The notes under the pieces: model-generated
The model's database searches: none
What the model was told of the DNA's origin: nothing
The model's input: the letters and a program-made list of their open reading frames with translations, nothing else
Position numbers and translations under genes: made by a program
Assembly (NCBI RefSeq): GCF_032118995.1
Contig: NC_092665.1
Coordinates: 15,768,012-15,832,011, forward strand
From: Asterias amurensis
Taxonomy: Eukaryota > Echinodermata > Asteroidea > Forcipulatida > Asteriidae
DNA length: 64,000 nucleotides
Reading direction: 5' to 3'
In this document: piece by piece, positions 25,503 through 64,000 of the stretch
Layout: every line of letters starts with the position of its first letter
Numbering within the stretch: position 1 is the first letter of the stretch

Positions 25503-25514
25503 GTTAAAATGTCA

Positions 25515-26395: not shown

Positions 26396-28201
26396 TCAAA
26401 TCGGAGAGATTGCCGACACGTAGATTATTCTCGGTTGTTTGTGTTGGGTGTGGTCGACCACACCCACCCGGGAGGTCGACTTCTTAATAAACATCACTAT
26501 AATAATAAATGACATTACAGTAAACAAAACGGTCGCCCCGAACCAAGGAAAGTCATCATCAGATGGTTTTTGATGAGTATGAAACGGCAAGAAACTGGTT
26601 GTCGACGAAGCTGCAGTGACTGGGCTCTCATCCTGGGAAGTGACTGACTCGATGGTCGGCAAACTGGTAGGCGAAGGGGCATGGGAGTTGGTCGGCAAGA
26701 AGGCAGACACGACAGCGTTTGGCAATACGGTAGGCGAGTCTCTAGGCAAGATGGTGGTAGGCAACACGGTAGGCGAGTTGGTAGGCGAGACGGTAGGCGA
26801 GTTGGTAGGCAATATGGCGGTAGGCAAGACGGTAGGCGAGTTGGTAGGCAAGATGGCGGCCGGTAAGACGGTAGGTGAGTTTGTAGGCGAGTTGGCGGTC
26901 AACAAGACGGTAGGCAAGTTGGTAGGCGAGTTGGTAGGCAAGGCAGCGGTCAAAAAGACGGTCGGCGAGTTGGTAGGCGAGGCAGTGGTGGACAAGACGG
27001 TAGGCGAGTTTGTAGGCGAGTCGGTAGGCAAGATGATGGTAGGCAAGACGGCAGGCGAGTTGGTTGGCAAGACGGCGCTCAACAAGACGGTAGGCGAGTT
27101 TGTAGGCGGGTCGGTAGCCAAGATGGCGTTTGGCAAGGTGGTAGGTGAGTTGGTAGGCGAGTTGGTAGGCAAGATGGTAGGCGAGTTGGTAGGCGAGACT
27201 GTAGGCGAGTTGGTTGGCAATATGGTAGGCGAGTTGGTAGGCAAGATGGTGGTAGGCAAGACGGTGGTAGGCAAGACGGTAGGCGAGTTGGTAGGCGAGT
27301 CGGTAGGCAAGATGGCGGTAGGCAAGTCGGTAGGCGAGTTGGTAGGCGAGTTGGTAGGCAAGATGGCGGTCGGAAAGTCTGTAGAATCGGTAGTGGTTGA
27401 TTCTACAGGGTTGAAGTGAATCCGGCTGTTGAGCCGAGTTGTAAGAGTTTGCATTAAAGATACCGGTTTCTGTCGTACCGAAATCGGAGCAAAGACGCAG
27501 GACCGTTTTCTTGAGGGATAGCGAATGCTCGTGATATTGCATGAGATAACTACCCCGTCGTGGGCAAGGCTGGCCGTCAAGTTCAAGCTCCGAACAATCC
27601 TACCATCAGTACTGATCTCAGTGTTCCATAGCTCGTTTTGAACGTCCTCATTCATTGAAGTAATCATCAGATTTACCTCGGGGTAACCCAGCGACGATTC
27701 GCACCTGAGGGACAGGACATCGCCGGTGAAAATAGTTGTGTCTTCTCCCGGTGTACACTCCGGGTTTGTGTCGTCTGGAAAGGTATACACCGTAACTGTT
27801 AACTCCATTGTCTCAAGTACGAGATATTCATACGCCGAGGTGTGCTGGACGACAAGGCAGTGGTAGACTCCTCTATCACGCCCCTGGACGGACGAAATAC
27901 TCAGGGCGTTCTGCTTGTTCGGCGAACCATCACCCCGGCTGACCAAGTCTTCGGGCTCGACTAAGAACCTGCCTCCCGTTGTCAGTGTTTCGTTGTTCGA
28001 GTTGCGCCAGATTATAGACATATCAGAGCTTAAACCTTCACCCTGACAGTTCAGGTAAATGTTGTTCCCTTCTTCTACTTCGATGTTTTTCTGCAGCGGT
28101 AGATGGAGCACATTTAGCATAATTCCTTCTACACTGGTAGTGTACATGTACAACACACATAATATGAGAAACACTCCACAAACTTTCGTGTTCGATGCCA
28201 T
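26396..28201 (-). CDS. intronless Ig-family receptor with mucin-like stalk (type I)
   Basis: Probable cell-surface receptor of 601 aa in one exon. Residues 1-26 are a signal peptide. A V-like Ig domain follows (Cys52, Trp65, DRGVYHC ending at Cys115) with an RGD at 89-91. A second Ig-like domain carries the family signature: PxC at its start, a central Cys pair, and SCVFAPISV at its end. Residues about 265-530 are a Thr/Ser/Pro stalk of repeated NSPT and LPT units, likely O-glycosylated. One helix lies near 553-572 with a 27-residue tail ending RIIYVSAISPI. The ATG precedes the signal peptide directly. The - strand repeat makes long meaningless frames on the other strand. The ligand is unknown. 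An ATTAAA about 180 nt past the stop could end the transcript. Confidence 0.88.
   Translation of the reverse strand: MASNTKVCGVFLILCVLYMYTTSVEGIMLNVLHLPLQKNIEVEEGNNIYLNCQGEGLSSDMSIIWRNSNNETLTTGGRFLVEPEDLVSRGDGSPNKQNALSISSVQGRDRGVYHCLVVQHTSAYEYLVLETMELTVTVYTFPDDTNPECTPGEDTTIFTGDVLSLRCESSLGYPEVNLMITSMNEDVQNELWNTEISTDGRIVRSLNLTASLAHDGVVISCNITSIRYPSRKRSCVFAPISVRQKPVSLMQTLTTRLNSRIHFNPVESTTTDSTDFPTAILPTNSPTNSPTDLPTAILPTDSPTNSPTVLPTTVLPTTILPTNSPTILPTNSPTVSPTNSPTILPTNSPTNSPTTLPNAILATDPPTNSPTVLLSAVLPTNSPAVLPTIILPTDSPTNSPTVLSTTASPTNSPTVFLTAALPTNSPTNLPTVLLTANSPTNSPTVLPAAILPTNSPTVLPTAILPTNSPTVSPTNSPTVLPTTILPRDSPTVLPNAVVSAFLPTNSHAPSPTSLPTIESVTSQDESPVTAASSTTSFLPFHTHQKPSDDDFPWFGATVLFTVMSFIIIVMFIKKSTSRVGVVDHTQHKQPRIIYVSAISPI
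26636..27400. repeat. coding minisatellite of the mucin-like stalk
   Basis: Degenerate tandem units built on GGTAGGCGAGTTGGTAGGC (+ strand), in multiples of 3, encode the PTNSPT/LPT stalk of the receptor gene. Such arrays commonly vary in copy number between alleles. Confidence 0.85.
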
Positions 28202-28465
28202 AATACTGTTAAAATCTGTTTTGCGTTTACACCATGTATCTACTCGCGTAGGTTATGTTCTTTTGAGAAATTGCCTCACTACAGAATTAAACTCTTCTAT
28301 CGCAGAGTAAATTTATCGGAATTCGGGAAACTGCTCTGCTACGTTGACACCTCACCATGCGATGGCTCCAATCACATAACACTATTTCAATACAAGCTCA
28401 AAGTAGTAACGTCTCTTCCTGATCAAGACTTCGCGAAGTTGTGATTGTACAGCCGAGCATCATGG

Positions 28466-28472
28466 TTTTATA
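28466..28472 (-). promoter_or_regulatory. TATA box of the mucin-stalk receptor gene
   Basis: TATAAAA on the - strand, 265 bp upstream of the ATG at 28201, with immune-type sites just beyond it. A start site near 28440 is predicted. Confidence 0.5.
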
Positions 28473-28553
28473 ACCCTTCCGTGTTAAGAGGAACTTGATG
28501 ACCCGTGTTTCCCGGTATCCACGCTCCTGGAGTTACAGTGTCTTAAAGATAGA

Positions 28554-28564
28554 GGGGATTTCCC
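28554..28564. promoter_or_regulatory. NF-kB-type site
   Basis: GGGGATTTCCC fits the Rel consensus (GGGRNWYYCC) exactly and lies about 85 bp upstream of the TATA box. A second match, GGGGATTTCC, lies at 28874-28883 in a diverged copy of the same module. Confidence 0.45.
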
Positions 28565-28580
28565 ACGAAGAATATAGCAG

Positions 28581-28601
28581 TGACTCAGCCAGAGTCACGT
28601 G
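28581..28601. promoter_or_regulatory. AP-1 and E-box sites
   Basis: TGACTCA (28581-28587), a perfect AP-1 match, then CACGTG (28596-28601). Both sit directly upstream of the kB site of the mucin-stalk receptor gene. Confidence 0.4.
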
Positions 28602-29453: not shown

Positions 29454-29901
29454 TAGCCTTTAGTCAAGGCGCACGCGGCACACCGAATGGCACGCACAAC
29501 CCCAAAAATGTAACGCACGAAAAAAGACTATCACCGCGAGCGGCGAAGCCGCGAAGCGCCTTTACCAACTCGTTTTGGGGCCTTATGTTTTTTCTTTACA
29601 TTTGCCAACGATTTTGGTGGGGGAAAATGTAATGCACAATGCATTAGCGTGGTGAGTTGCTGGCCAATAAGAAGCCATAATTACTTGCATGACGTCACAA
29701 GAACGTTCGATGCAAATTCGTTACATTTTCTCCCACCAAAATCGTTGACAAATGTAAAGAAAAACATAAGGCCCCCCAAAAACGAGTTGGTAAAGGCGCT
29801 TCGCGGCTTCGCCGCTCGCGGTGATAGTCGTTTTTCGTGCGTTACATTTTTGGGGCTGTGCGTGCTATCAGGTGTGCCGCAAGCGCCTTGACAAAAGGCT
29901 A
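29454..29901. mobile_element. Mutator-like MITE with long inverted repeats
   Basis: 448 bp bounded by TAGCCTTT...AAAGGCTA and flanked by a perfect 9-bp direct repeat TTGTTTACC (29445-29453 and 29902-29910). The inverted repeats exceed 150 bp and face each other around an AT-rich centre. Long inverted repeats with a 9-bp target duplication point to the Mutator superfamily. No coding capacity. Confidence 0.75.
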
Positions 29902-31723: not shown

Positions 31724-32827
31724 TCACAGAGGAGAACTGCTCGATATAGTAACAACTGTATCTGGGTAAAACTGAGTGTTATCAATCCCATTCAGTCTCA
31801 AGTTCCCGTTTTTCGATTTCTGTTTCTCGATGAAGGCTTCTTGGGCCTTTGTCACCTTGTAAATGTCTCGGGCCTTTTTATATTTGAGGACTAACGCACA
31901 CGTGATGATGTTGATGGCAATAGCGAGGGCCAGCAGAGCAGCACAAACCAAAAACGCGTACAGCCAGGGGAAGCCTGATGAGATTTGTTGCATGGTTGGT
32001 TTGGGAGGTAAAGTAGAGAATTCTTCGGGACGAACGGTGACCATGGTGCTGAGGAGGCGAGTCGCGGGTGGTTGCGGTGCGATAGACGGTGTAGATACCG
32101 GCCTCTCGTTGACGGTTATCGGTCCGATGAAGCAAGTTCTTGTGTTTGACGGAAAGCGTGTGCTTGTTATACTGCACTGAACCACTGCCCCATCTTGGGC
32201 AAGTCTTGCCTCCCAGTTTAAACTACGTACGATTGTTCCTTCGTTACTTGTCACCGTGTTCCACTGCGTGTCACGAAATGTCACGTCGGACGGTGCGATG
32301 GTGACATTCACAGCGGGGTGACCCGGATATGTTGAACAAGTCATCGCCAACACATCGCCTATATTTACGGTCGTCGGCCCGCTCGGTGAACACTGTGGGT
32401 TGGTGTCGTTCGGAAAAGTGAATACAGTCAAAGTTACCTCTTCTGTTTCAATCACACGCTCCCCAAACTCCGGGTTATTCTCGACGATCCGGCAGCGGTA
32501 CAGACCCCTGTCCTCCTCCACCACCGGTGAGATGGCCAACGTACAAGCCTTGTCTAGAGACGTATCACCCCGTCCTCCAAGCTCTTCGGCGGTGAGTGTG
32601 AACCGGTCCGAAGTGGCAAGGTTCACGGTGCCGTGTTGCCAGATAACGTAGCTATCTGCTCCCAAGTCCCTGCCCTCACACCTCATGGTCACATTGTCCC
32701 CTTCTTCAAGATTGTCAACGTCGCCATCCTCAATGAAGATTTCAAGTGTCGTCTCTCCACTTGTACATGCTAGAAGATGTAACAGGACAAGCACCAAACA
32801 ATTCACCATCGATACTCTTGATGCCAT
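31724..32827 (-). CDS. intronless Ig-family receptor (type I)
   Basis: 367-aa predicted membrane receptor in one exon. The first ATG upstream of the signal peptide (MASRVSMVNCLVLVLLHLLA) is at 32827; the frame stays open further upstream but without another ATG. Domain 1 is V-like: Cys50, IWQHG with Trp63, RGD at 86-88, EEDRGLYRC ending at Cys112. Domain 2 starts FPNDTNPQCSPSGP and ends RTCFIGPITV, the family signature. A Pro/Thr-rich stalk, one helix (about 290-314) and a 53-residue tail with basic residues and two tyrosines (DIYKV, QFYPDTVV) follow. No canonical ITIM or ITAM. It is closest to the 26.4-kb gene. Ligand unknown. Confidence 0.88.
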   Translation of the reverse strand: MASRVSMVNCLVLVLLHLLACTSGETTLEIFIEDGDVDNLEEGDNVTMRCEGRDLGADSYVIWQHGTVNLATSDRFTLTAEELGGRGDTSLDKACTLAISPVVEEDRGLYRCRIVENNPEFGERVIETEEVTLTVFTFPNDTNPQCSPSGPTTVNIGDVLAMTCSTYPGHPAVNVTIAPSDVTFRDTQWNTVTSNEGTIVRSLNWEARLAQDGAVVQCSITSTRFPSNTRTCFIGPITVNERPVSTPSIAPQPPATRLLSTMVTVRPEEFSTLPPKPTMQQISSGFPWLYAFLVCAALLALAIAINIITCALVLKYKKARDIYKVTKAQEAFIEKQKSKNGNLRLNGIDNTQFYPDTVVTISSSSPL

Positions 32828-39454: not shown

Positions 39455-40552
39455 TTATTCTGATGAGAGAGCCACGTTAGCGTAGCCCCCCTGCTCTGCA
39501 TCGGGCACTTTTGCCCCTTCCTTGGGCATTTCAACAAGACTAAGTCCTTTTACTTTTCGCCTTTTCATCTTCTCACGGTCCTCCTCCATTCGTCTGCTTG
39601 TCACGAGGGCAATGATGATGACTATGGACAAAGTAGCGATCCCTGTGGACACCAAGAAGGCAATCAACCAGCCTCGACAAGCCTCACTAGGAATGGGAGG
39701 AAGGTCGGGTCTAGTGGACACGGGTGGTAGAATGGGGTTATTTGGAGCCGGTGAGGCAACACCGAGGGTCGGGTTGACTACTCTAGGGATTACAGTTAAT
39801 GGGCCGAGTTGGCATGATCGACGGAAAGCAGGGAAAATGGGGCTCTCTATGGTGCAGATGAAGAGCAACCCGTCGCCAGAGGGCGTCACATTATTAATCA
39901 AGAGCTCTTTGGATACAGTATCTCTGTCTTGAATGGTGGACCATGGATTTGCTCCGATGTTACTCAGTGTTAGTTTAACTTCAGGGTTACCTTTCTCCGA
40001 AGAGCACCGTAGAAGTAGTGCCTCACCCTCGGTAACATCCACGGGACCATCCGGTAGACACGTGGGACTGCCTTGGTTGGGGAAATACATCACAGACAAG
40101 GAAACAGTTTGGACAGCAACTATATTGAATGACATCGAATCACCCGGAACCTGGGTCTCAATGAGGCATGAGAAATCCCCATCATCACCTCTTTGAACCG
40201 GGGAGATGGTGAGATCGTACGCAATGTCTTTGGTTGAGTCGCCCCGACCGGGTAGCGATGCAAGCTCGACGGCAAACCTCGGGGTGTCGTACGGGTCCTT
40301 TAGAACCGTATCGCGGGCGACCACCTCCACCCCGTGCTGCCAAGAGACCACGTAGTCCGAAGAGGACGCCATCAGACCAGTAACCTCACATCGCAGGGTT
40401 AGGTTATCGCCTTCCTGGTAGCTAGTAAGGTCTGACAGTGTTCCACTCAAAACGACTATGTCAACCGTTTCACCCGTTGCATGCACCGCTCGGACAACGC
40501 AGCACAAGAGTAGCAGCTTCATCGCAATTGTGTCAAGTAATATCATCGCCAT
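39455..40552 (-). CDS. intronless Ig-family receptor (type I) with YANV tail
   Basis: 365 aa in one exon. The signal peptide is MKLLLLCCVVRAVHA; two in-frame ATGs (40552, and Met11 at 40522) are possible. Domain 1 is V-like (Cys55, SWQHG Trp71, RGD at 103-105, DDGDFSC ending at Cys129). Domain 2 starts SPTCLPDGP and ends RSCQLGPLTV, the family signature. After a Pro-rich stalk there is a helix (about 295-317) and a 48-residue basic tail ending GGYANVALSSE. Tyr357 sits in YxNV, the form bound by Grb2-type SH2 domains when phosphorylated; this role is inference. A TATATAAG lies only 2-9 bp upstream of the first ATG, favouring Met11 if it is the promoter. Confidence 0.87.
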   Translation of the reverse strand: MAMILLDTIAMKLLLLCCVVRAVHATGETVDIVVLSGTLSDLTSYQEGDNLTLRCEVTGLMASSSDYVVSWQHGVEVVARDTVLKDPYDTPRFAVELASLPGRGDSTKDIAYDLTISPVQRGDDGDFSCLIETQVPGDSMSFNIVAVQTVSLSVMYFPNQGSPTCLPDGPVDVTEGEALLLRCSSEKGNPEVKLTLSNIGANPWSTIQDRDTVSKELLINNVTPSGDGLLFICTIESPIFPAFRRSCQLGPLTVIPRVVNPTLGVASPAPNNPILPPVSTRPDLPPIPSEACRGWLIAFLVSTGIATLSIVIIIALVTSRRMEEDREKMKRRKVKGLSLVEMPKEGAKVPDAEQGGYANVALSSE

Positions 40553-40553
40553 A

Positions 40554-43323: not shown

Positions 43324-43698
43324 TTAAAAGGCAGTGGACACGATTGGTAATTACTCAAAATAGTTATAAGCATAAAACCTTATTGGTAACGAGTAATGGG
43401 GAAGAGGTTGATAGTATAAACATTGTGAGAAACGGCTCCCTCTGAAGTGCCATAGTTTTCTAGAAAGAAGTAATTTTCCACAAAATTGATTTCGAGACCT
43501 CAGATTTAGAATTTGAGGTCTCAAAATCAAGCATCTGAAAGCACACAACTTCGTGTGACGAGGGTTTTTTCTTTCATCATTATCTCGCAACTTCGGCGAC
43601 CGATTGAGCTCAAATGTTCACAGGTTTGTTTTTTATGCATATGTTGAGATACACCAACTGTGAAGGCTAGACTTTGACAATTACCAATAGTGTCTTTA
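43324..43698 (+). mobile_element. TTAA MITE (GGCAGTGGACAC family)
   Basis: About 375 bp from TTAAAAGGCAGTGGACACG to AATTACCAATAGTGTCTTTAA, with TGAGGTCTC/GAGACCTCA inverse repeats inside. Non-coding. Confidence 0.75.
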
Positions 43699-47728: not shown

Positions 47729-47743
47729 AAAACCTTCATCTTT

Positions 47744-48132
47744 TTAAAGGCAGTGGACACTATTGGTAATTACTCAAAAACAATTATTATCATAAAACCT
47801 TTCTTGGTGACGAGTAATGGGGAGAGGTTGATAGTATAAAACTTCTGAGAAACAGCCCCCTCTGAAGTGACGTAGCTTTTGAGAAAGAAGTATTTTTCCA
47901 CGAAGTTGATTTCGAGACCTCAGATTTAGAATTTGAGGTCTCGAAATCAAGCATCAGAAAGCACACAACTTCGTGTGACAAGGGTGTTTTTTTCTTTCAT
48001 TAATATCTCGCAACTTCGACGACCGACTGAGCTCAAATTTTCACAGGTTTGTTATTTCATGCTGATCTTGAGATACACCAAGTGAGAAGACTGGTCTTTG
48101 ACAGTTACCAATAGTGTCCAGTGTCTTTAAAG
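47744..48132 (+). mobile_element. TTAA MITE directly after the 15-bp array
   Basis: TTAAAGGCAGTGGACACTAT to AGTGTCTTTAA; best-preserved copy of its family in the window. It starts about 16 bp after the last repeat unit. Confidence 0.75.
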
Positions 48133-48608
48133 TATTCCGAATATCCTTTGATTCATTATCACACCTATACGTTACTCAATAACTTGAAGTATAGTGGTAT
48201 ACTATTTCAAATATCAATAGATTGGTATATCAATATCCTGGTAAACATCAACACATAGTTTTGAAAAATCCTTCTCCTGTGTATTTCAGGTAGATTCACA
48301 AAAAGCCTCGTTATTACAAGTCTCCCACAAGTGACTGAAGATTTTTGCATTTTGACGCACACCGTCAACGGCTGAAATGTATGTCGCAGGTTTAAAAAAA
48401 TTCTAGAGGTTGGGGTCTTATTGTTTGACTGAAAATAATGCTAAATTCAGAAGTACAAAAATATCAACATTGTGCATACAACGAATTGACAAACAAACAC
48501 AGTTATTATAAACAAAACTAAATATTATGTCCGTTAATTCTTGTTGCTAAAGTAGCTGTTTAAACTAAAAAACATTGGGCATCTCACCGACAATTTGCTA
48601 ACTTTTTT

Positions 48609-49817
48609 TCAATCGCTATAAAAATCTCCTTCACCTACTGCCTCAGCTAACTGCTGCTTCAGGTCCGCGTCCCAGTACCCCCCTACCTCAGGTTCATCCT
48701 CACGTTGAAATGACGTCCCGGGATTCCCTTGATCCTCGTAGATATTCGGCTCGATCTCGACGATGGGCAAGACGTCACGGTCAGCACCGTCTTCAGAAGA
48801 GAACCGATCATCTTCAGCTGGGTTGGGTTCGTCACTGCCGTCAGGGGTCTGTCGATCGAGCTCAACGTCGGTCTGCTTCAGCCGTTTTGAAGACTGCCTT
48901 CTTCGGATGGTGCCGCTGAAGAAACCGCCGAAGTTGAGGAGGTATTTCTTTGGTTTGTATCGGCAGCAGATGGTGTGGATAAGGAGGAAGAGGAGGAGGA
49001 GGAGCATGAGGAGCAAGAATGCACCCACTACGATCACGATGAGTACAGCAGTTGGTAGGGCTGGCTCTCCGGTAGGTTGGATCAGAGGCTGCTTGGGTGT
49101 GGTTGGGGCTGGAATGACCGTCAATGGACCTATCTTGCAAGAAAGAGACGTCCAGTTTTGATTCTCCGGAGTTATTGAAAAACAGAAAAAAGTGACTCCT
49201 TCATCTGAAACTTTGACACTCTTCTGCAACCGTGATCCAGGTTCGTTTCCTGCTTGAGTTGAATTAATTTCTTCCCAATCTGGCCTTTCTACGGTACTGT
49301 TCGTATCACTGACCAATGGGGTTCTTTCATCGATGACCGTGCTACATGTCAGAATGTCTCCCTCGTTCACAACGGCCGGACCGTCTGGGAAACAGACTGG
49401 AAACTCTTCTGTTGAGTTTACAGTAAGACGCCCTTCTCTATTTGTAATTACAGTTTTATTGTCTTTCCTAATAATGACACACAGGTAAGACCCAGCATCA
49501 GTTGATGTCAGTGTGGTGATTGTTAGGTTTTGAGAATGAAGTGTCGACGTTTCTTTATCCAGATCAACAGGGCTGACGGAAATTCTATCATCTTCCATGA
49601 CTTCAGAGTAAGAAGGACTGACATAATGCTGCCAGGTAAACATGTGTACATCCGGATCAAAGCCAGTAGCCAGGCAGGTTAGAGTTACAGTGCCGTTCGT
49701 GAATGGTTGCTGTGGATAAACTGATACTCTGGAGACAGTGACCTCACAATGACCCGGGGATGGAAGACAAAGCAAGAAGATGACGAAACAACTCACGATC
49801 AAGTGGAGAATGCCCAT
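48609..49817 (-). CDS. intronless Ig-family receptor (type II), long acidic tail
   Basis: 402 aa in one exon. The first ATG (49817) begins the signal peptide MGILHLIVSCFVIFLLCLPS; the frame is open upstream only through a GTG. Domain 1 is V-like (Cys48, FTWQH with Trp62, STDAGSYLC). Domain 2 starts EEFPVCFPDGP and ends LSCKIGPLTV. A short Pro/Thr stalk, a long Leu-rich helix and a tail of about 110 residues follow. The tail has KKYLLNFGG near the membrane, an acidic stretch, EIEPNIYEDQG, GGYWDADLKQQLAEAV and FYSD at the end. These are shared with the 52.8-kb paralogue. Adaptor unknown. Confidence 0.88.
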   Translation of the reverse strand: MGILHLIVSCFVIFLLCLPSPGHCEVTVSRVSVYPQQPFTNGTVTLTCLATGFDPDVHMFTWQHYVSPSYSEVMEDDRISVSPVDLDKETSTLHSQNLTITTLTSTDAGSYLCVIIRKDNKTVITNREGRLTVNSTEEFPVCFPDGPAVVNEGDILTCSTVIDERTPLVSDTNSTVERPDWEEINSTQAGNEPGSRLQKSVKVSDEGVTFFCFSITPENQNWTSLSCKIGPLTVIPAPTTPKQPLIQPTGEPALPTAVLIVIVVGAFLLLMLLLLLFLLIHTICCRYKPKKYLLNFGGFFSGTIRRRQSSKRLKQTDVELDRQTPDGSDEPNPAEDDRFSSEDGADRDVLPIVEIEPNIYEDQGNPGTSFQREDEPEVGGYWDADLKQQLAEAVGEGDFYSD

Positions 49818-51055: not shown

Positions 51056-51422
51056 TTAAAGCCATTGGACCCTTTCGGTTTAGAAAAAAAATAACAGATT
51101 TACAAATAACTTACAGGGTTTACAGAAGGCAATGGTGAAAGACTTCTCTTGAAATATTATTCCATGAAATGCTTTACTTTCTGAGAAAACAGCAAAACAA
51201 TATAAATTCTCGTTAACGAGAATTACGGATTTATTTTAAACACATGTCATGACACGGCGAACCGCGCGGAAACAAGGGTGGGTTTTTCCGTTGTTTTCTC
51301 CCGACTCCGATGACCGATTGAGCCTAAATTTTCAAAGGTTTGTTATTTGATATAGAAGTTGTGGTACACAAAGTGTGGGCCTTGGACAATACTGTTTACC
51401 GAAAGGGTCCAATGGCTTTAAA
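51056..51422 (+). mobile_element. TTAA MITE (GCCATTGGACCC family)
   Basis: TTAAAGCCATTGGACCCTTT to AAAGGGTCCAATGGCTTTAA: near-perfect inverted ends of over 20 bp. No coding. Confidence 0.8.
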
Positions 51423-52781
51423 CCATACCTGCCAGACAATTCAAAGAATGATATAATTTCTCATGAATTGGTACATGAATCATGCAGTGTTATTCACATA
51501 AATTATTTAACCTTTGAAAACACCGGCAAATCATTAATCAGTATTGCAGTAAAATTGTATTATTTTTTTGGGGGGACTTCGTCTACTTCAATATTGCATT
51601 TCTGTTACTACGACATAAGCTTAGTTTACAACTATAATCAGCTGAAATGTTTCTCATCAATAACATTCATTATTGTTTTATAAGAGTTGTTGAACTACTA
51701 TTATCCTCGAACATCTAGTGCATCAAAACCTGACCTTTAACCCCTTTTAGATCTAGCTGCGAAATATAACTCTGTACTGATGACGTCACTGTTTGTTTAC
51801 TACACTGCTTAACTGCTATAACTGGTACGCGTTGCAATTCCGACAGTTGTGCAGCGACACAATGGTGTCCCATTCTTCTGCAAAGTGGTAACCAAATTGT
51901 GACGTCATCCGTACTATAAGGTCAGTGGACCTCGTCAATGGACAAGTAAAAGTCAGCGATCCACATAGAGTAAATATTTCATTTGAATGAACGAGGGAAC
52001 CAACGTATCCACATAGGTTGGTATTTTAATAAAACTTCCATGGCCATAACCACTCGGAAATACACAAGAAAAAAACAAAAAAAAAACACGCCAACTTGGA
52101 GAAATGCAAAAACCTTTTGCCAATTTCGCATTTTTTTTTTTGGGGGGGGGGCAGCATTAACGATGGATCAAACTCAAACTTAGAATCACACAGAAAGCCA
52201 CATTGACACGCTGAGCTGATGAAAAAAAAAAGACTCTTAGAAAGTCCAAATGTATGCAATCCAGCAACTGATTAGACTGTGCTGTTTTGTTTTGGACGTA
52301 TTATCACTTGTGCAGCCATTTTGTTTGCCTATAAATTAAAACTTCCAAACTGAGGCTAAACGTTTGAGTGGGCCCTTATCGTGTGTCATTGATGTAGATT
52401 CTATAGTTGTTACTTACAAGAAACTTGACATTGCCAAGATAACTTCAAGTAATCCCGCCCCCGATATATCTATCATTTCTTTTAAAGTAAAGTATTTAAG
52501 AGACACCCTTGGCAAATACTACTTCCGAATTGTAGTATATCATTACTTTAAAAAATACTTTTGACCACGATGCTCTTGGTTATAATATATTCCAATACAC
52601 AAAGTAATAATCATGTTATAGTTCAATCAATAGCAAACAATATCACACAAACTTTCTGGACCTCTTTTGTGTTTTCACACTTTCCCTTTGTCTTTTTGCA
52701 GGCCTTTTGTGTCTCCTTCAGCCCCCCCCCCCCCCGACTAAGAAACATTGGTCATACCTCTGGTACACGTCGTCAACGTTT

Positions 52782-53978
52782 TCAGTCACTAAAATCATCA
52801 TCTTCATCCACAGCATCAGCTAACTGCTGCTTCAGGTTCTCATTCCAGTAGGCATCTTCCTCAGGATCCGTCTCACGTTGAGAAGACGTCCCTGGATTCC
52901 TCCGCTCCTCGTAGATGTTCGGCTCGATCTTGACGATGGGCAAGACGTCATGGTCAGCACCGTCGTCGAATGAGAACCTTACCTGACCATCTTGAGCCAT
53001 TGGGCTGGGTTCGTCGCTGCCATCGGGGTTCTGTCGATCAAGCTCTACTTCGGCCTGATTCGGGTGTCTGGACGTTCTTTTCCGGATGGTGCTACCGAAG
53101 AAACCGTCGAAGTTAAGGAGGTATGATTCTTCGCGACAGCAACAGCAGATGATTATGATGAGGATGATCACCAGAAGCAAGCCTGCACCCACCGCGATGC
53201 CGATGATTACAGCAAGGGGCAGGGCTGGCTGTCCGGTAGGTTGGATCAAAGGCTGTTTAGTTGTGGGTGATCGAGTGACCGTTAACGGTCCTATCTTGCA
53301 GGAAAGAGACGTCCAGTTTTGATTCTCCGGAGTTATTGAAAAACAGAAAAATGTGACTCCATCATCTGAGACTTGGACACTCTTCTGCAACCGTGATCTA
53401 GATTCGTTTCCTGCTTGAGTTGAATTAATTTTCCAATCTGGCCTTTCTACAGGTTCTTTTGTATCACTGACCACTGGGGTTCTTTCATCGATGACCGTGC
53501 TACATGTCAGAATGTCTCCCTCGTTCACAACTGCCGGACCGTCTGGGAAACAGACTGGAAACTCTTCGGTCGAGTTTACAGTAAGACGCCCTTGTCCATT
53601 TGTAAGTATAGTTCCTGCAGTGTTGTTCGCAACAATGACGCACAAGAATAACCCTTCATCTGATTTCGTGAGGTTGGTGATTGTGAGACTTTGGGAATAA
53701 AGTTTCACCACTTCATCAATTAGATTATCAGGGCTGAAGGACATTCTGTGATCCGGTATTACATTGACGTAAGACGAGTTGTAAGATCTTAGCCAGGTAA
53801 ACATGTGAGCGTTGGGGTCAAAGCCAGCCGCGGAGCATGTAAGAGTAACATTACCATTTTCAACTGGTTGCACTGGGAAACTGGAGACAGTGGGCTGACT
53901 GACTTGACATTCACTCGGTGATGGAAGACAAAGCCAGAAAAAGACGAAACAGCCTCTAATGATAGAAATAATTCCCAT
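52782..53978 (-). CDS. intronless Ig-family receptor (type II), long acidic tail
   Basis: 398 aa in one exon, starting at the first ATG (53978) with signal peptide MGIISIIRGCFVFFWLCLPS. Domain 1 is V-like (TLTCSAAGF, FTWLR, KSDEGLFLC) and diverged from the 48.6-kb gene. Domain 2 (EEFPVCFPDGP to LSCKIGPLTV) is nearly identical to that gene and to the partial gene at 63.4 kb. Helix: LAVIIGIAVGAGLLLVIILI, then a Cys cluster. The tail repeats EESYLLNFDGF, EIEPNIYEERR-like and LKQQLADAVDEDDDFSD. The conserved IYE[ED] could be an SH2 target after phosphorylation (inference). Confidence 0.88.
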   Translation of the reverse strand: MGIISIIRGCFVFFWLCLPSPSECQVSQPTVSSFPVQPVENGNVTLTCSAAGFDPNAHMFTWLRSYNSSYVNVIPDHRMSFSPDNLIDEVVKLYSQSLTITNLTKSDEGLFLCVIVANNTAGTILTNGQGRLTVNSTEEFPVCFPDGPAVVNEGDILTCSTVIDERTPVVSDTKEPVERPDWKINSTQAGNESRSRLQKSVQVSDDGVTFFCFSITPENQNWTSLSCKIGPLTVTRSPTTKQPLIQPTGQPALPLAVIIGIAVGAGLLLVIILIIIICCCCREESYLLNFDGFFGSTIRKRTSRHPNQAEVELDRQNPDGSDEPSPMAQDGQVRFSFDDGADHDVLPIVKIEPNIYEERRNPGTSSQRETDPEEDAYWNENLKQQLADAVDEDDDFSD

Positions 53979-55208: not shown

Positions 55209-56091
55209 CCTGACTTGGACCAAGACAGATAAACCCTATAGGCTGCAAGAAGGGGGTAATAAATGGGGGCGGAGATAGGAATAGGCGGGACATTCTTCTA
55301 CTTGGTTACATTTCCGATGGCCCAACTTAAGTGACAAATAACAAAAAAAACTTATTTTTGTTTAATACTTTATGCAGACTCTTTATTAAAGCAAAACAAA
55401 AAATGAAACAAAATTAAAACATGCACAAAATGCTATACTTTTGTAGCTTTCAAAATTTCTGGATAATATAAACAATTACAAAATACGAGTGAAGTAACAT
55501 ACGCGTGCTAGACGTTAAGACCTATTATAATACAATATTATTTTCTTGTGTATTGATAGTGTCAAACGAGGCAATTTATGGCCAACGGTTTCGAAGACAT
55601 TTCCAAGAAAATTATCACTTTAAACATGTAACCCTTTGTTCAGAAAATCTATTTAAAAAATACATATATATATATATTAAAAATCCGGGCCGTCTCGGAT
55701 AATAAGGTTCTTTAAAAAATTCTTTATTTGTTTTATATTTTTTCCCTTTCAAAGTGTTTCTTCTGACACAAATGGTTGTCTCCAAGTTGCAGTAAAATGG
55801 TCCTTCATAACAGAACGCTCGTTCTTATGTTTGAAATAGAAAAAGTAAACTGATTCAATTGCGATGTGCCATTTTATTTTTTACTGCACTTGAATTAGAC
55901 CTATACATGAATACCCAGGGTATCATATTTGACTAGAATCCACCGCAGTTCAGACAGACAGAAAGGTTAAAAGTTATGTCTTTGGTTATAAGTAAAATAC
56001 AAAAATACTTAATTCAACAAAATGTACAGCGCAAATCACAGCTTGATTAAAACAAAAAGTATGTGTTTCACTGAGTAAAATAAACCATTGC

Positions 56092-56460
56092 TTAAAGGCA
56101 GTGGACAATATTGGTAATTACTCAAAATAATTTTTAGCATAAAAACTTACTTGGTAACGATTAATGGGGAGAGGTTGATAGTATAAAACAATGTGAGAAA
56201 CAGCTGCCTCTGAAGTGGAGTAGTTTGTGAGAAAGAAGTAATTTTCCACGAATTTAATTTCGAGACCTCAGATTTAGAACTTGAGGTCTCGAAATCAAGC
56301 ATCCGTGACCAGGGTGTTTTTTCTTTCATTATTATCTCATAACTTCGACGACCAATTGAGTTCAAATTTCCACAGGTTTGTTATTTTATGCATATGTTGA
56401 GATACAGCAAGTGAAAAGACTGGTCTTTGACAATTACCGATAGTGCCCACTGTCTTTAAA
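56092..56460 (+). mobile_element. TTAA MITE (GGCAGTGGACAC family)
   Basis: TTAAAGGCAGTGGACAATAT to CCCACTGTCTTTAA, with the same internal GAGACCTCAGATTTAGAAC block. Confidence 0.75.
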
Positions 56461-56667
56461 CTGTGTTCTGCATACTGCGTGAACTCTAACTTATACATGG
56501 AAGTATGTTGTTGTAGTAAGTTACAACAATTTTTATTTATTTTATTTTTAATTTTATTCTTCGGACAAGCAAAACAATAAAACAAGCACAGGCCGTCCAG
56601 GGAAGGGCAAAAGTAAAAAAACTGTCATCAAAAAAGATTTGCCCTCCCAATATTGTAGCCAAGAATA

Positions 56668-57022
56668 AAAAAGAAACTGGACACCTTTGGTAGTTGTCAA
56701 AGACCAATATTTTCACTTGGTGTAAGCCAACATCAGTATAAAATAACAAACCTGTAAAAATGTTGGCTCAAAGTTGCAAGAAAATAATGAAAGAAAAAAA
56801 CACCCTTGTTGCAGTGGTCGTGCTTTTAGATGGAAATATATGAATAAAAAGCTGCACGAGAGTCTTTTAATATTTTAGTGAGAACTTGCCTCTTTCTCAA
56901 AAACTCAACTTCAGAGAAAGTAGTTTTTCACACTGTTTTATACCATCATCATTATACTTGCAGCTTTCCGTTGCTCGTTATTAAGTTAAGTTTTTATGCT
57001 AATACATTTTGAGTAATTACTT
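56668..57022 (-). mobile_element. diverged reverse copy of the TTAA MITE
   Basis: Begins GACACCTTTGGTAGTTGTCA and ends TTTTGAGTAATTACTTA; the inside matches the reverse complement of the family in patches. Confidence 0.5.
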
Positions 57023-57686
57023 AACGTGTCAAGTGAATTTAATTACATGCTGTTTTTTAAAGCACAACCAACAAGCCAACTTCAGCCTTGTATATTGTTA
57101 GGGTGAATTTTAGTCTTGATTTCCTTATAATACTCAACCCGACTGATGAGCCCAAACTTTTTAGGGGAACCACCAGTTCATTCCCATGATATTTTGGACA
57201 TGTTAGTTGTACGAAAGAAAATGTGCAAAACGCATTACTAATGCAGTGGTGTGAAAAGGCGTTTTGTAGTATTCAACTCTATTGTACTGCTGAATGACGA
57301 GCAGTGCTGGGAACGAGGTGAACAATAACAACAACACCGATCTCAGGGTTAACTTATATTGTAATTCATAAATCTGCTAAACACACGAAGTTGCTAATAA
57401 TCACAATTCTAGATAATTGTGCTGATGCATATGGGGTGTACAAAAACACCATCTCTGGGTTAACATATCCTTATAATTTTTAAAATATGCTAATTGCAAA
57501 TGTTTACAAACAATCACATCACTATTGGTGTTGCAGAATACCAGCTAAAATACAACGCACATGTACAGCAAACGCGCCTGGTTCCTTACTATTTTTTTTG
57601 GCTAGCAATATTTAACCAGTTTAGCGGCTGTTCTTCGATTTAAGTGAACTTTGTGAACTGGAGATATTTTGAGCCAACTTTTAGTT

Positions 57687-59240
57687 TTACACGCGAATGT
57701 CAGCATACAGAGTTTCTTGCGGATTTACCAATTGTTTGTTTTCGTCTTGTCCTTCTTTCTCAAGATCGAGGTCGGCATAGACGACTGTCTGGGAAGACCC
57801 TTGCTCAATCTTATCGGAGATCTCTTCACGTCTTGAGAACTTCTTGGGCTTCCTCACCGGCTGTTGAGGTTGTCCAGTCGTGTCTGCACTCCGCGAAGTG
57901 CCTCCACTGGTGTCTGCGTTGTTAACACGGGGCTTGTTCACCTGAGCGTTAATCTGTGGTGTTTGTTGCCGAGGATCCGACGCACCAGGACGGCCTCTCT
58001 CGCTATGGTTTCGTCCGGTGGCTGCATGGGTTCGGTCGGTGTTATCGTGCGGTTTTGGGGGAATTCCAACGCTAGGCTCCCGGTCGGACGGATGCTTATA
58101 TTCATTGTTGATATTAGCACCAGCTTCTGCAATGTTCAGGTTTAGACGCAGGGAAATGTTCATGTCTGGCTCACGGGTTACGATAGATGATTCTGCGTAT
58201 ATTTTTGACTCAACTCCCGGTCGACCAGGCTGTGAGACACCCACCGACTGCTCTTCCAGGACAGAATTGTAAGAAGGTGGCACTTCATCCCTGTCCCTAC
58301 TTATCAGTTCATTGGGACTCCTGGTATCTTCACGAGCATGTGGGGTTTTCTGGGAGCTGCCGCAGTCGATGAGGTAGTCTTTGGGGTGAAACCATCGCCT
58401 AGTTTCACATCGACAACACAGTGTATGTATTGCGATAATAACGATAAGGACGACCACGCCAATGACAATACCGGTGATTTGACCAGCAGACAGTCTTGAT
58501 TTTATTTTGGGTGTTATTGTGGGTTCGATGTCAACAACTTTCAAAGGTCCAATAATGCAAAACAGATTCATGTCAGACGACGGTAAGTTTGCAACGCAGA
58601 TATACGTTTGTAAATTATCCGATGATGTAACATTTTTTATTAACAGAGCTATTCCACCATGCTGATATGAGTAGTAGAGCGTCCATTCATCATTATCTGC
58701 ACTAATCGATGCAGTTGCGTTACCAGATGTACTGCAGGAGATGAAACTTCCAGTGTTTACTGTCCCCGGACCGTTTGGAGTGCAGAACGGGAAGGCATCT
58801 CTGGGGTACACAGACAAAACTAGTTTTTTGTCTAAGACCCCCACAAAGGACATCTCACCAGTTGGATGAATAAGATTGCATTGGTATGTTCCTGTATCAG
58901 TTGTCTTTACTTCAGTGAATGTTAGATTGAAGGTTGAAATCAAACCCTTTGTGAAGCTAACCAGATATCGCTTATTTCTATAAACAGACAAGTCCGTACT
59001 GGTAACACCGAAACTGCCTGACCCCTCTTTATACCACGATAGAAAATGAGTTGAAGCATCGAAACCAGCAACATGGCAGAGGAGACTGACCGTAGTTCCC
59101 TCCCGCTGCACCATCATGTTGGGAGAAACTTCAAGAGTCATTGAAGGATATGACTGACAACGAACCGAGAATATCAGCAAAGAAAACATCAATGCTAAAA
59201 ACCAAACACCTTTCACAATGTCTCTACGTTGATCCTCCAT
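57687..59240 (-). CDS. intronless Ig-family receptor (type III) with ITIM- and ITSM-like motifs
   Basis: 517 aa in one exon; ATG 59240 begins MEDQRRDIVKGVWFLALMFS, a signal peptide ending near Cys28. Domain 1 is V-like: Cys55, LSWYK with Trp69, TTDTGTYQC ending at Cys121. Domain 2 has Cys153 (FPFCTPNGP), Cys169, Cys215 and Cys228 (NLFCIIGPLKV). One helix at about 250-272, then a 240-residue tail. The tail has KDYLID, PPSY at 321-324 (WW-domain type), and at its end VVYADL (Tyr488, V-x-Y-x-x-L, an ITIM) and TLYADI (Tyr512, T-x-Y-x-x-I, an ITSM), 24 residues apart. In vertebrates this pair recruits SHP phosphatases (PD-1 type). An inhibitory role here is inference. The 61.2-kb pseudogene is its closest relative. 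Confidence 0.9.
   Translation of the reverse strand: MEDQRRDIVKGVWFLALMFSLLIFSVRCQSYPSMTLEVSPNMMVQREGTTVSLLCHVAGFDASTHFLSWYKEGSGSFGVTSTDLSVYRNKRYLVSFTKGLISTFNLTFTEVKTTDTGTYQCNLIHPTGEMSFVGVLDKKLVLSVYPRDAFPFCTPNGPGTVNTGSFISCSTSGNATASISADNDEWTLYYSYQHGGIALLIKNVTSSDNLQTYICVANLPSSDMNLFCIIGPLKVVDIEPTITPKIKSRLSAGQITGIVIGVVVLIVIIAIHTLCCRCETRRWFHPKDYLIDCGSSQKTPHAREDTRSPNELISRDRDEVPPSYNSVLEEQSVGVSQPGRPGVESKIYAESSIVTREPDMNISLRLNLNIAEAGANINNEYKHPSDREPSVGIPPKPHDNTDRTHAATGRNHSERGRPGASDPRQQTPQINAQVNKPRVNNADTSGGTSRSADTTGQPQQPVRKPKKFSRREEISDKIEQGSSQTVVYADLDLEKEGQDENKQLVNPQETLYADIRV
57690..57791 (-). other. ITIM-like and ITSM-like tail motifs
   Basis: The last 33 codons of the receptor: TVVYADLDL (Tyr codon 57777-57779) and ETLYADIRV (Tyr codon 57705-57707). 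Both satisfy published consensus patterns, (I/V/L/S)xYxx(I/V/L) and TxYxx(V/I). Confidence 0.75.
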
Positions 59241-59383
59241 GGTCGTATGTTGACTACGCCGTGAAGTAAAAAATCAGTAATGGATGGAACACGACTCAAC
59301 TTCTGTAGACTCACTGAAAGTTTAGTTTCTTTATCGGTCTTACTGATTATATTGTTCACCATTGGACTGTTTAAACCTTCTTG

Positions 59384-59389
59384 TATATA
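59384..59389 (-). promoter_or_regulatory. conserved TATA-like box of type III receptors
   Basis: TATATA about 145 bp upstream of the ATG. The same box (62495-62500), followed by the same CAGTCCAATGGTGAAC-type block, lies about 143 bp upstream of the 61.2-kb copy. Confidence 0.45.
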
Positions 59390-60806
59390 GCATGAGTATA
59401 TTCCGTCATCAATTTGAACGTGATTTGGTTGATGTCAACCTCGCAGTTTGGTCCAAGTCTCGAAACTGATTTACTGTACTCTGTCTGCGCATACAAAGTA
59501 AACCCAACATTATTATAATACGGGATTAGTTGCGTCGTTATTTTTCAAAGACCAGTTTCCTTGTTATGAACACTTTTTACGCAGTTGTGAAGTTTAGGGT
59601 CATGACCTCTGTTGTGTGTACCTTTCTTAGGTAAATATGTGGGTGGGTAGTATAAGAATGCCATTTGAGTTTACGGTTTCTCCTTTCACACACACACACC
59701 TCTATCAACACTAGAAAAGTTAAAACTGCATCATTTACTTGAAATGTTTATCATCTCAACGGTGGTACTAAAATCCAAACTGTCTTCAAAAGCTCTTATG
59801 TAAACTATTGCAAGAAATATGATTTCCAACAATCCATAACTGCACTGCAAACCTATTTAGCATACATCAGTGTGTACAGAGAATGCAGTTTGTGTGAACG
59901 CGTATGAGGTATGAACCAACCTGTCAGATTGAACCATTCATGTGAAACCAACCCTGAATTACGCCAATGGTTTCCGTCATGGCGGCTTGCTACGCAGCAA
60001 CACATTGGGATTGGCTCCTTGGAATGTGTCCCCCTTATCTTTTGACAACTTTGTGTGTATTGATTATTTTGTTAATGTCTTGTAAAACTGTTGAAGTTGT
60101 AGCTGCACTATTTTCTAAGATGAAGGTTCCATCCTCATACAACTTAAGGAGGATGAGACTTCAGTTCCCCTCAAGCCAGTTTGGCAAGACTTATGTAGAT
60201 TTGAAAACATAAAATAAAAATAACTATTTTTTTTCATTGTGCTCATGCAAACAAATTTAAAAGGAAAATTGTTTTTCAAAAGTGTATTTTAATAATTATA
60301 TATTTATTGATACGTCTAGTAAAATTAATTTAAAAACAAATCTAAAATCACAAATGAACAATAAAAAAGACCTCCAACATTACTCGAAGTCCTGTCAGAT
60401 TTCAAAATGTGCATCGTTACCCTAAAAGAAGTGTTATCCATTCTCTGACATCATATCTGAGTAATTGTTATCGTTAAACAGAAAAAACAGCTCTTGTTTG
60501 TGTAATTCCGAAAGTGGAAAACACTTCAACAAAAGATTTCTTTCAAAAACCAGGTACTTTTAAACCATTCTGTATTGATTAAAACGTCCTGTAAAACTAC
60601 TTAAAAAAAGACAATATAAAAACATGAATGAAACATAAAATACCGCCACCGATATAAACTCTTATGATATATTTTCAGATTTCCAAATGTTCATAGATAC
60701 ACAGTTTTCAATCGTTTATGATATCAAATTGGAATATTTAATACAAAAGCTGTTGCACCCGCAGGTTACTATTGTTGACTTGTTCAATCAACGTACAGTC
60801 TTAGAC

Positions 60807-61171
60807 TTAACGGCACCGGACACTATAGGTATTAACTCAAAACAATGGTTAGTATACACATTCACTTGATCTTGAACAATGGATAGCCATCGGTAGTATA
60901 ACACATTGTGAGAAATGGTCCCCTTTAAAGTAAAGTGGTTTTGGGGGAAGAGACAATTTCTCACTCAAAAATGAAATGCTTTTTTTTAAAGCCTTTTTAG
61001 GCATCTGAAAGCACACCATTTTTTGCAACAATAGTTGTTTTTTTCTTCCATTATTCTCTTACAACTTTAATGATCGATTGAGTCCAAATTTTCACCGATT
61101 TGTTATTTTATGCATATAAGTGAGAATACTGATCTTTGACTATATATTCCAATGAAGTCCAGTTCCTTTAA
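60807..61171 (+). mobile_element. decayed TTAA MITE
   Basis: TTAACGGCACCGGACACTAT to AGTCCAGTTCCTTTAA, with worn internal blocks. Confidence 0.45.
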
Positions 61172-61215
61172 AGTTTGAGTCATGTGTACGGTGTAAATCA
61201 ATGCCAAGAGTTCGA

Positions 61216-62352
61216 TCAGCTAAGTTTAAGTTCTGCATACTGAGATGGTTTCTCGTATGCAGTGTCCAACTCCATGTAAGGATCTGCTTCCCTAGTGCTG
61301 GCATCTTTCTCGTGTTCAACGGGTTGAATAGAGGGAAGACCAGGCTGGGGGTTTTCTTTCAGGGTCGAACAGTATACATGAGGCACATCATCTCCTTCCT
61401 TACTCATCGGTACATCAGGTGGACTCCTTGAAGCATCTTCTTGTGCCTGTGGGGTTTCCCGGGAGCTGCAGCAGTCAATGAAGAAGTCTTTTGCGAGCCT
61501 CCACCTTCTTGCGTCGAATCGGAAACACATAACATGTATTGCAACGAGAATGATGAAGACGACCAGTCCTAAGATGATACCAGCGATTTGACCAACAGAC
61601 AGGCCTGATGTTACGACTGTTGTACCGGTAGGCCTAGTTGGTATCGTGGGTGGTGTTGTGGATTCGATGTCAACAACATCCAAAGGTCCAATAGTGCAGG
61701 ACAAATTCATATCAGACGACGGTAAGTTTGCAACACAGATGTACGTCTGTGAATTGTCCGAAGTTGTAACATATTTTGAGAAGACCGCCCCACCCTGCTC
61801 ACCTCAGTAGACCACCCAGTCTCCATGTTCTCCAGTAATCGATGGAGTTGCAATACCAGATGTACTGCATGAGATGGCCCTTCCAACAGTTAATGTCTCC
61901 GGACCGTTTGGACTGCAGGACGGGAATGCGTCTCTGGGGTACACTGACAAAACTAGTTTCTCGTCTAAGACCCCCACAGCAGACATCTCACCAGTTGGAC
62001 GAATAAGATTGCATTTTTATGTTCCTGTATCAGTTGTCTCTACTTCAGTGAATGTTAGATTGAAGGTTGAAATCACACCCTCTGTGAAACTAACAAGATA
62101 CCGCTGATCGCTAACATACAAATCCTTACTGGTAACGGTAAAGATACCCAAGATGAACCAAGACAGGTAATAAGAAGCATTAAAACCAGACACCTGACAG
62201 AGAAGACTGACCGTAGTTCCCTCCCGCTGCACCGTCATATTGGGAGAAACTTCAAGAGTCATTGACCGACAGCGGACTGAGAATATCAGCGAAAAAAACA
62301 TAAGTGCTAAAAACCAAACACCTTTCACATTGTCTCTACGTTGGTCCTCCAT
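61216..62352 (-). pseudogene. type III Ig-family receptor copy with ITAM-like tail, two in-frame stops
   Basis: A full-length relative of the 57.7-kb gene, 379 codons in one frame with no frameshift, but interrupted by TAA at 62017-62019 (a Tyr codon in the paralogue, just before the domain 1 Cys) and TGA at 61804-61806 in domain 2. The signal peptide (MEDQRRDNVKGVWFLALMFF), both Ig domains (LSCTIGPLDVV at the end), and the helix (GQIAGIILGLVVFIILVAIH) are otherwise kept. The tail is short and ends DPYMELDTAYEKPSQYAELK: YMEL and YAEL are 9 residues apart, matching YxxL-x(6-12)-YxxL, the ITAM pattern. It is either a recent pseudogene, a null allele, or carries assembly errors. Confidence 0.75.
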
Positions 62353-63401
62353 GGTCGTGTGTTGACTACACTGTGAAGTAAATATTCGGTAATTAATGGA
62401 ACGCCACTCAACTTTGTAGCCTCACTGAATGTCTAGTTCCTATATTAGTATTTACTGTAATGTTCACCATTGGACTGTTCAAACCGTGTGGCATATATAG
62501 CATGAGTTTATAAATCAATCATATATCAACTTGAAAGTGATTTGTTTGATGACAACCTCGCAGTTTGGTCACAGTCTCGAGACTGAGTTGCTGTACTCTG
62601 TCTGCGCACGCAAACTAAACTCAACGTCAATAATACGGGAGTAGTTGCGGCGTAAGTTTCCTTGTTATGAACCATTTTTACGCAGTTGTGAAGTTTAGGG
62701 TCGTGACCTCTGTTGTGTAGTTTTCTTAGGTAAATTCGAGGGTGCGAGTGAATAATGTGTTATATTATACGTTTTTTCCTTTCATACACCAAAATATATC
62801 AACACTGGTTTCAACTGCTCGGGGATACTGAAACGGTAAATATTTTTTTTAGTACAGTAAAGAATATTTTGGCAAGGTTTTGAGTTTCAGCAACTTGTGA
62901 TTGTTCTTTGAGAAACTGTTGATGCAATATTTAATATAAATTACGAAATAACACATTTTTTTCCGGGAGAAAAAAATTGTAGTTTTTGTAAGTAAGACTC
63001 CTTTCTTATAAAATTAAGTTAAGTATGGTCACCATAGCTCTGATTAGTGACGTAACCAGAGGAAAGGGAATCATGGAATTTGTCACGTTTCGAAATTTGT
63101 AGCACATTGTCAACCTCCATAACGCGGTCAAGAGTTTAAAAGTAGCATGTGGAAGTACAGCTATTAAAGGTTTGGTGTAAAACCATGTGGATATCCTTTT
63201 TTTTTTTAGTGCCAACCATCAAGTCCAGTATTCTCCTGAAGACAATTGGAGCATGCTTATCGAAACGTTGAGTCGTTAACCATCGGTTCTTTTAAAACCT
63301 TTACTAATAAAAACAGAGACATCAACATGGTGTTACCGCAAACCTCTCTTATAAAATTATACAGAAGTTTGCAATATTTCCCAAAGTGTATTCATTACAA
63401 T
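62353..63401. other. intergenic: duplicated type III upstream DNA
   Basis: 62353-62735 is a diverged copy of the DNA upstream of the 57.7-kb gene (TATA box, CCAAT-like block, and a CTGTACTCTGTCTGCGCA block). A dispersed repeat copy lies at 63326-63346. No gene seen. Confidence 0.5.
63326..63346 (+). repeat. dispersed repeat core, ATGGTGTTACC family
   Basis: ATGGTGTTACCGCAAACCTC, identical to the copy at 39303. Only the core is kept. Confidence 0.45.
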
Positions 63402-64000
63402 TTAATACACGCGTATCGAAGTAGCATAAATATGGGATGGATTTTGCTGGTTTGGCCCCTTGTCTGAGGTTGTATTACTTGTCCTTTTACGTCGGTACAC
63501 AAAGTATGAGACGAGGATGGTAACCAGACCAACAAGAAGGATTAAAGGGATTGTTATACCAGTAATTACACCGACAGCGAGGCCAGGTTCGTCAGTAAAA
63601 ACTGTTGAAGGTGTTATTTTTGTGGTTGGGTAGGGGATGATGGTCAAGGGTCCTATCTTGCAGGAAAGAGACGTCCAGTTTTGATTCTCTGGTGTTGCTG
63701 AAAAACAGAAAAATGTGACTCCATCATCTGCAACTTTGACACTCTTCTGCAACCGTGATCCTGAATCGTTTACTGCTGGAGGAGTCTTGACCCAATCTGG
63801 CCTTTCTACAGGTTCTTTTGTATCACTGACCACTGGGGTTCTTTCATCGATGACCGTGCTACATGTCAGAATGTTTCCCTCGTTCACCACTGCCGGACCG
63901 TTCGGGAAACAGACTGGAAACTCTTCGGTCGAGTTTACAGTAAGACGCCCTTGTCCATTTGTAAGTATAGTTCCTGCAGTGTTGTTCGCAACAATGACGC
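63402..64000 (-). CDS. intronless Ig-family receptor (type II), partial, short tail
   Basis: The last 199 codons of a receptor that runs off the right edge. From the edge it reads the end of domain 1 (VIVANNTAGTILTNGQGRLT), then domain 2 (EEFPVCFPNGP to LSCKIGPLTI), nearly identical in DNA to the 52.8-kb gene. The stalk, helix (VGVITGITIPLILLVGLVTI) and tail differ completely: the tail is about 32 residues, basic, and ends SHIYATSIRVY. That ending resembles the IIYVSAISPI end of the 26.4-kb gene more than its own sub-family. Confidence 0.85.
   Translation of the reverse strand, partial: VIVANNTAGTILTNGQGRLTVNSTEEFPVCFPNGPAVVNEGNILTCSTVIDERTPVVSDTKEPVERPDWVKTPPAVNDSGSRLQKSVKVADDGVTFFCFSATPENQNWTSLSCKIGPLTIIPYPTTKITPSTVFTDEPGLAVGVITGITIPLILLVGLVTILVSYFVYRRKRTSNTTSDKGPNQQNPSHIYATSIRVY

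Follow-up and report, generated by a model that had tools for sequence, protein, structure and literature searches.

A tandem array of single-coding-exon immunoglobulin-type receptor genes with mosaic divergence in a sea star genome

What kind of protein is encoded by a row of related genes in a sea star genome, and by what route has the row diversified? The genes occupy positions 26396-64000 of a 64,000-nucleotide stretch of Asterias amurensis DNA (contig NC_092665.1, positions 15,768,012 to 15,832,011), hereafter the window, and they would encode surface proteins with two immunoglobulin (Ig)-like domains. We suspect, with a probability of roughly 0.55, that they are tandemly duplicated type I membrane receptors with a single coding exon each, in which the first domain (D1) binds ligand and the tail sets the signal, and that they were diversified by duplication and gene conversion. 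Judging from the sequences, the cluster most likely represents germline-encoded immune or self-recognition receptors.

The array comprises eight homologous loci (R1 to R8), all on the minus strand, and a tblastn search of the whole window with the eight proteins (E<=0.01) matched only these. The initial annotation, which had described a tandem array of related receptor loci on one strand, was right in this respect. Its count of seven genes plus one partial gene has to be changed to six intact genes (R1 to R6), one pseudogene (R7) and one locus cut by the window edge (R8). Each of the six intact genes is one ATG-to-stop frame of 365-601 amino acids. The longest ATG frame expected by chance is 231 amino acids (100 order-1 Markov sequences of 38 kb each), and a chance origin of the six frames is therefore rejected. 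The idea that all loci are intact is also rejected; R7 is classed as a pseudogene because it holds two in-frame stops. By eye, all seven readable starts (R1 to R7) have an A at position -3 and a G at +4.

The earlier statement that the genes lack introns holds for the coding part, which is a single exon in every intact gene, but does not extend to the 5' untranslated region, where an intron may lie. Conservation between the 5' flanks of R4 and R5 begins just past an AG that lies some 42 bases ahead of the ATG, as expected if such an intron were present. The flanks of R6 and R7 are conserved out to about 450-470 bases before the ATG and both contain CTATATA by eye; of these two genes, only R7 matched a stricter TATA pattern.

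Frames, Pfam matches, alignment and cysteine pattern bear out a shared plan of a leader, a V-like D1 (of V/I type), a second domain (D2) with a common signature, one helix and a variable tail, as had been proposed. All seven loci whose N-terminus is included start with a hydrophobic leader, and all eight have a single hydrophobic helix further on; both were called from hydropathy only, without a signal-peptide predictor. In a Pfam scan with eight queries (R7 as its last 164 codons only, R8 partial), D1 scores above the cut-off for Ig_3 in 6/6 intact genes, and a second Ig stretch, within D2, is matched in R1, R2, R3 and R6. D2 has a four-cysteine pattern of near-constant spacing at every locus. 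The inner two cysteines are probably the usual B-F pair. The outer two would sit on the first strand and the last, and a second disulfide probably links them.

Structure prediction had been put forward as a check on this plan, and it agrees with it. The AlphaFold2 models of the R5 ectodomain (mean predicted local distance difference test score, pLDDT, 78.3; predicted template modelling score, pTM, 0.54) and of the R2 ectodomain (mean pLDDT 82.6, pTM 0.57), built from input alignments of seven of the eight loci, are beta sandwiches, strand-rich throughout, and their Foldseek matches are Ig proteins, including two-Ig receptors. Together with the Pfam matches to D1, these models point to an immunoglobulin superfamily fold, of which the B-F disulfide itself is a predicted feature.

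The loci fall into two close groups, R4/R5/R8 and R6/R7. R1 to R3 form a looser group united mainly by D1, with identities of 39% (R2/R3) and 27% (R1/R3) against 19-25% between groups, and by D2 alone R3 is no nearer to R2 (32%) than to R5 (35%). R4 and R5 share 53% identity in D1.

Divergence within the R4/R5/R8 group differs sharply from one part of the gene to another. Between R4 and R5, synonymous divergence per site (dS) is 0.72 in D1, 0.19 in D2 and 0.58 in the helix plus tail. R5 and R8 do not differ in the final 21 codons of D1; their dS is 0.18 for D2 and rises to about 2.7 over the helix region, and R8 has an R4/R5-type D2 joined to a different tail. At codons for the same residue, silent differences number 7/85 within the tract and 52/174 outside it for R4/R5 (Fisher p=6e-5), and 6/93 and 28/43 for R5/R8 (Fisher p=9e-13). 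A 40-codon window permutation test gave p=0.0095 for R4/R5 and p=0.0005 for R5/R8, and a longest-run permutation test gave p=0.0009 for R5/R8. The D2 of R6/R7 shows no such dip (dS 0.35 in D2, 0.37 in D1), which makes a general silent constraint on D2 unlikely, and a trial tract over codons 1-45 of that pair was unremarkable (6/32 vs 49/192, p=0.51). In the R4/R5/R8 group the silent sites of D2 match much better than those of its flanks, and R8 carries another tail; together these suggest gene conversion or module swapping. The simplest reading is that the D2 of R4, R5 and R8 was copied by gene conversion, or by unequal exchange or module swapping, while D1 and the tails differ.

A dispersed repeat of about 0.37 kb occurs in the window. 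Whole or partial copies lie at 43324-43694, 47743-48133, 56091-56461, 60806-61174 and 51272-51423, and inverted copies at 25492-25837 and 56670-57030. Some copies lie in the 3' flanks of receptor genes and could favour unequal exchange.

The tails were scanned with the patterns of the immunoreceptor tyrosine-based inhibitory motif (ITIM) and switch motif (ITSM). R6 carries an ITIM-like and an ITSM-like motif, R7 a single ITIM-like one and the others none, a mixture that resembles that of paired immune receptors. At least two such motifs occurred in 2.7% of 20000 shuffled R6 tails, and at least one in 11% of shuffled R7 tails. A search of the PDB with the last 60 codons of R6 gave no match. The earlier suggestion of a probably immune family gains weight from the R6 motif pair, from the conversion-like mosaicism and from the presence of a pseudogene in the array, the role itself being a matter of likelihood. 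The same tail bears on the proposal that these are gamete recognition receptors, which we regard as far-fetched: tandem, diverging Ig surface proteins would also be compatible with that role, which has no direct support, and the ITIM-like plus ITSM-like tail of R6 indicates leukocyte-type signalling instead.

Several observations weigh against the receptor and gene conversion scheme favoured here. The tract limits in the Fisher tests were picked after viewing the divergence plot, so the permutation tests weigh more, and of these the longest-run test was not significant for R4/R5 (p=0.15). Silent differences between R6 and R7, for which we claim no conversion, are mildly clustered too (p=0.009 and 0.02). 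Since the tails of R5 and R8 may lack common ancestry, their alignment is open to doubt. Pfam gives no Ig match to the D2 of R4, R5 or R8. As for signalling, at least one motif occurred in 24% of the shuffled R6 tails, the ITIM-like pair is confined to one intact gene (the tails of R1 to R5 and R8 have other tyrosines), and by eye the helices show no charged residue suited to an adaptor with an immunoreceptor tyrosine-based activation motif (ITAM).

Selection also speaks against part of the scheme, in that no whole domain has a ratio of nonsynonymous to synonymous divergence (dN/dS) above 1. Strong positive selection on whole domains is therefore rejected. For R4/R5 the ratio is 0.51 in D1 (95% interval 0.31-0.82) and 0.26 in D2 (0.09-0.70); for R6/R7, in which R7 is a pseudogene, it is 0.32 in D1 (0.17-0.56) and 0.62 in D2 (0.31-1.24). 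Among thirty-codon windows in three pairs, dN/dS nominally exceeds 1 in 4/59 and is undefined in six more. The description of the family as rapidly evolving can thus be kept in part, but not in the strict sense.

Could the array instead encode Ig proteins of an adhesion or guidance type (Kirre/Rst, DIP, Robo or JAM-like) that expanded in tandem and have a developmental rather than an immune role? Matches to the R2 model and to the family as a whole raise this possibility. The best Foldseek matches of R2 are to D1-D2 of Rst (template modelling score, TM, 0.43-0.47), with SYG-1 D1-D2 within the top ten; the best PDB matches of the family profile are Dscam, MDGA1, Robo2 and two DIPs; and R2 alone has a single PDB match at E<=0.01, to DIP-eta (E=0.0023). 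However, Rst and SYG-1 reach TM-scores of about 0.4 at less than 20% identity, which marks them as general Ig matches, and R6 lies closer to V domains of the antibody and T-cell-receptor-like kind. Developmental adhesion genes seldom show recent duplicates, a pseudogene or mosaic tracts. We consider this explanation unlikely. The sequence and fold matches of R2, R5 and R6 are general Ig resemblances and assign no family. By fold, R5 matches mostly antibody fragments (TM 0.3-0.44 among the matches listed), and the D2 of R6 alone has three weak PDB matches, the best to an NCAM domain (E=0.076). Searches for relatives of the R5 ectodomain gave 2 pattern matches in viral contigs and 30 in bacterial and archaeal genomes, none confirmed, in collections hardly expected to contain an animal family.

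Under the immune or self-recognition reading, the receptors would be expressed at the cell surface, where the membrane-distal D1 most likely binds ligand and D2 would serve as a stalk domain, probably held by its second disulfide between the first and last strands. The tail would determine the signal. We suspect that R6 is inhibitory and that phosphorylation of its ITIM-like and ITSM-like tyrosines could recruit SH2 phosphatases. Its sisters, with other tails, could signal differently or serve as decoys or in adhesion. Tandem duplication would supply new receptors, and gene conversion could then copy D2 from one gene to another, leaving D1 and the tail distinct.

A bolder version, to which we give only a slim chance, treats the array as an invertebrate paired-receptor or self-recognition cluster of single-exon genes. 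Germline gene conversion would reshuffle their ligand-binding, stalk and signalling modules, with no introns to separate these. If this were true, the animal being an echinoderm, the cluster would be a candidate for the unknown allorecognition receptors of coelomocytes. Single-exon receptors of the paired type would add a further invertebrate case of ITIM-type motifs. Such simple genes would lend themselves to cloning, expression and genotyping, and the array would offer a test of module swapping by gene conversion among clustered invertebrate receptors.

Table 1. Receptor loci, second domains, tail motifs and stalk repeat, in window positions
Feature	Position	Strand	Description
R1	26396..28201	-	intact, 601 amino acids; leader, D1, D2, long Pro/Thr/Ser-rich repeat stalk, one helix, short tail; Ig_3 E=7.7e-10
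R1 stalk minisatellite	26721..27384	-	NSPT/LPT-type repeats, Pro/Thr/Ser; Tandem Repeats Finder
R2	31724..32827	-	intact, 367 amino acids; single frame, Pfam
R3	39455..40552	-	intact, 365 amino acids; YANV in tail; single frame, Pfam
R4	48609..49817	-	intact, 402 amino acids; single frame, Pfam
R4 D2	49116..49400	-	four cysteines; putatively homogenised with R5
R5	52782..53978	-	intact, 398 amino acids; single frame, Pfam
R5 D2	53277..53558	-	four cysteines; putatively homogenised with R4 and R8
R6	57687..59240	-	intact, 517 amino acids, long tail; single frame, Pfam
R6 D2	58536..58790	-	four cysteines
R6 ITIM-like VVYADL	57768..57785	-	motif scan
R6 ITSM-like TLYADI	57696..57713	-	motif scan; tyrosine 24 residues after the ITIM-like one
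R7	61216..62352	-	pseudogene, sister of R6; TAA at codon 112 (62017-62019), TGA at codon 183 (61804-61806)
R7 ITIM-like SQYAEL	61228..61245	-	motif scan; behind the R7 stops
R8	63402..64000	-	cut by window edge; D1 end, R4/R5-type D2, different helix and tail
R8 D2	63639..63917	-	four cysteines; putatively homogenised with R5

On its left the array adjoins a Rap1 GTPase-activating protein gene of several exons on the plus strand, recognised from 4/10 frames tried that match Rap-GAP models and from a PDB match. Its exons lie at 5049-8824, and more are probably present outside that span. Among 39 of the 43 other frames of at least 75 amino acids from 18.3 kb to the window end (the remaining four lie within tandem repeats), Pfam returned just TonB_N and Vpu, both weak and in 1/39 frames each. 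Rfam at gathering scores and a tRNA scan with ARAGORN found nothing in the window.

The window also holds other repeats. Two long palindromes (23426-23805 and 29454-29901) are about 84% self-complementary and resemble foldback elements or miniature inverted-repeat transposable elements. A minisatellite at 45854-47723 has a 15-base unit in about 123 copies with a 95% match and a strong G/C skew. A large array at 12659-16686, with a 48-base unit and multiples of it, contains the palindrome-like CAAGGCTATAGCCTTG. A tandem array at 20704-21212 has a 104-base unit that appears by eye to be tRNA-derived, like a short interspersed element, and in which ARAGORN called no tRNA.

How does the array compare with known receptor systems? 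The best PDB sequence matches of R5 are 8qpx (E=1.5e-7, query 19-159) and 8ovq (E=3.1e-7, query 19-134), a receptor tyrosine kinase and a cell recognition molecule from sponges. The likeness is at the Ig level, and the array receptors have no kinase domain. By sequence, R6 comes nearest to V domains of the antibody and T-cell-receptor-like kind, and amphioxus IgVJ-C2 (5xpw) stands at rank 12; its phmmer match takes in part of each domain (E=1.5e-5, query 33-191 of 218). In IgVJ-C2 a J-like FGxG motif closes the V domain; D1 ends with NGQGRLTV in R5 and NREGRLTV in R4, and R6 lacks a motif of this kind.

Vertebrates provide the best-known Ig receptors that come in inhibitory and activating pairs. 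Those families (SIRP, Siglec, CEACAM and KIR) likewise form clusters with related ectodomains and differing tails, some with ITIM or ITSM. The putative ITIM and ITSM of R6 would provide one side of such a pair. A near-identical D1 sister with an activating tail or a charged helix was not found within the window, where R4 and R5 share only about half of their D1 residues and the nearest sister of R6 is a pseudogene; more genes may lie beyond it. Vertebrate paired Ig receptors are multi-exon genes with spliced modules, whereas here each gene has one coding exon, and no activating member was identified within the window. Gene conversion or concerted evolution is reported for Siglec-11/16 and CEACAM.

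A single-exon two-Ig receptor family was not among the literature matches listed, a coverage that leaves out the main Hydractinia Alr paper and the 2006 sea urchin immune genome paper (Science), so that a known family may have been missed. Sea urchin genes with Ig domains and a helix may go by the name IgTM; among the literature matches listed, the word is an antibody trade name.

The remaining comparisons draw jointly on passages of PMC11999971, PMC12065747, PMC13428168, PMC7916673, PMC9763293, PMC2632668 and PMC1988830. According to these, the IgVJ-C2 ectodomain consists of a V and a C2 domain (AmpIgVJ-C2 in a review); its likeness to the array is one of domain layout and of general Ig type. 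Amphioxus VCBP have two V-type domains and are clustered and polymorphic, but differ in having several exons and a chitin-binding domain at the C-terminus; the main text of the VCBP source does not use the word 'transmembrane'. Identity with VCBP is rejected, as the Pfam scan returned no chitin-binding domain and the array genes have a single coding exon.

A further reading, which we hold to be quite unlikely, is a polymorphic allorecognition cluster of the Hydractinia Alr or Botryllus fuhc kind, with D1 binding either another D1 or a linked ligand. Botryllus FcoR are likewise Ig receptors encoded at a single locus, their tails bearing ITIM or hemITAM, but their layout is described as V, sushi, two C2 Ig domains and a helix, whereas the array receptors have two Ig-like domains and no sushi domain in the Pfam scan. 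Alr and FcoR are set against the array by description only. At that level, Hydractinia Alr is also a linked Ig family, reported to have 41 members of V-set and I-set type with ITIM and ITAM motifs, and allorecognition itself is shown, in the same sources, by the coelomocytes of sea stars.

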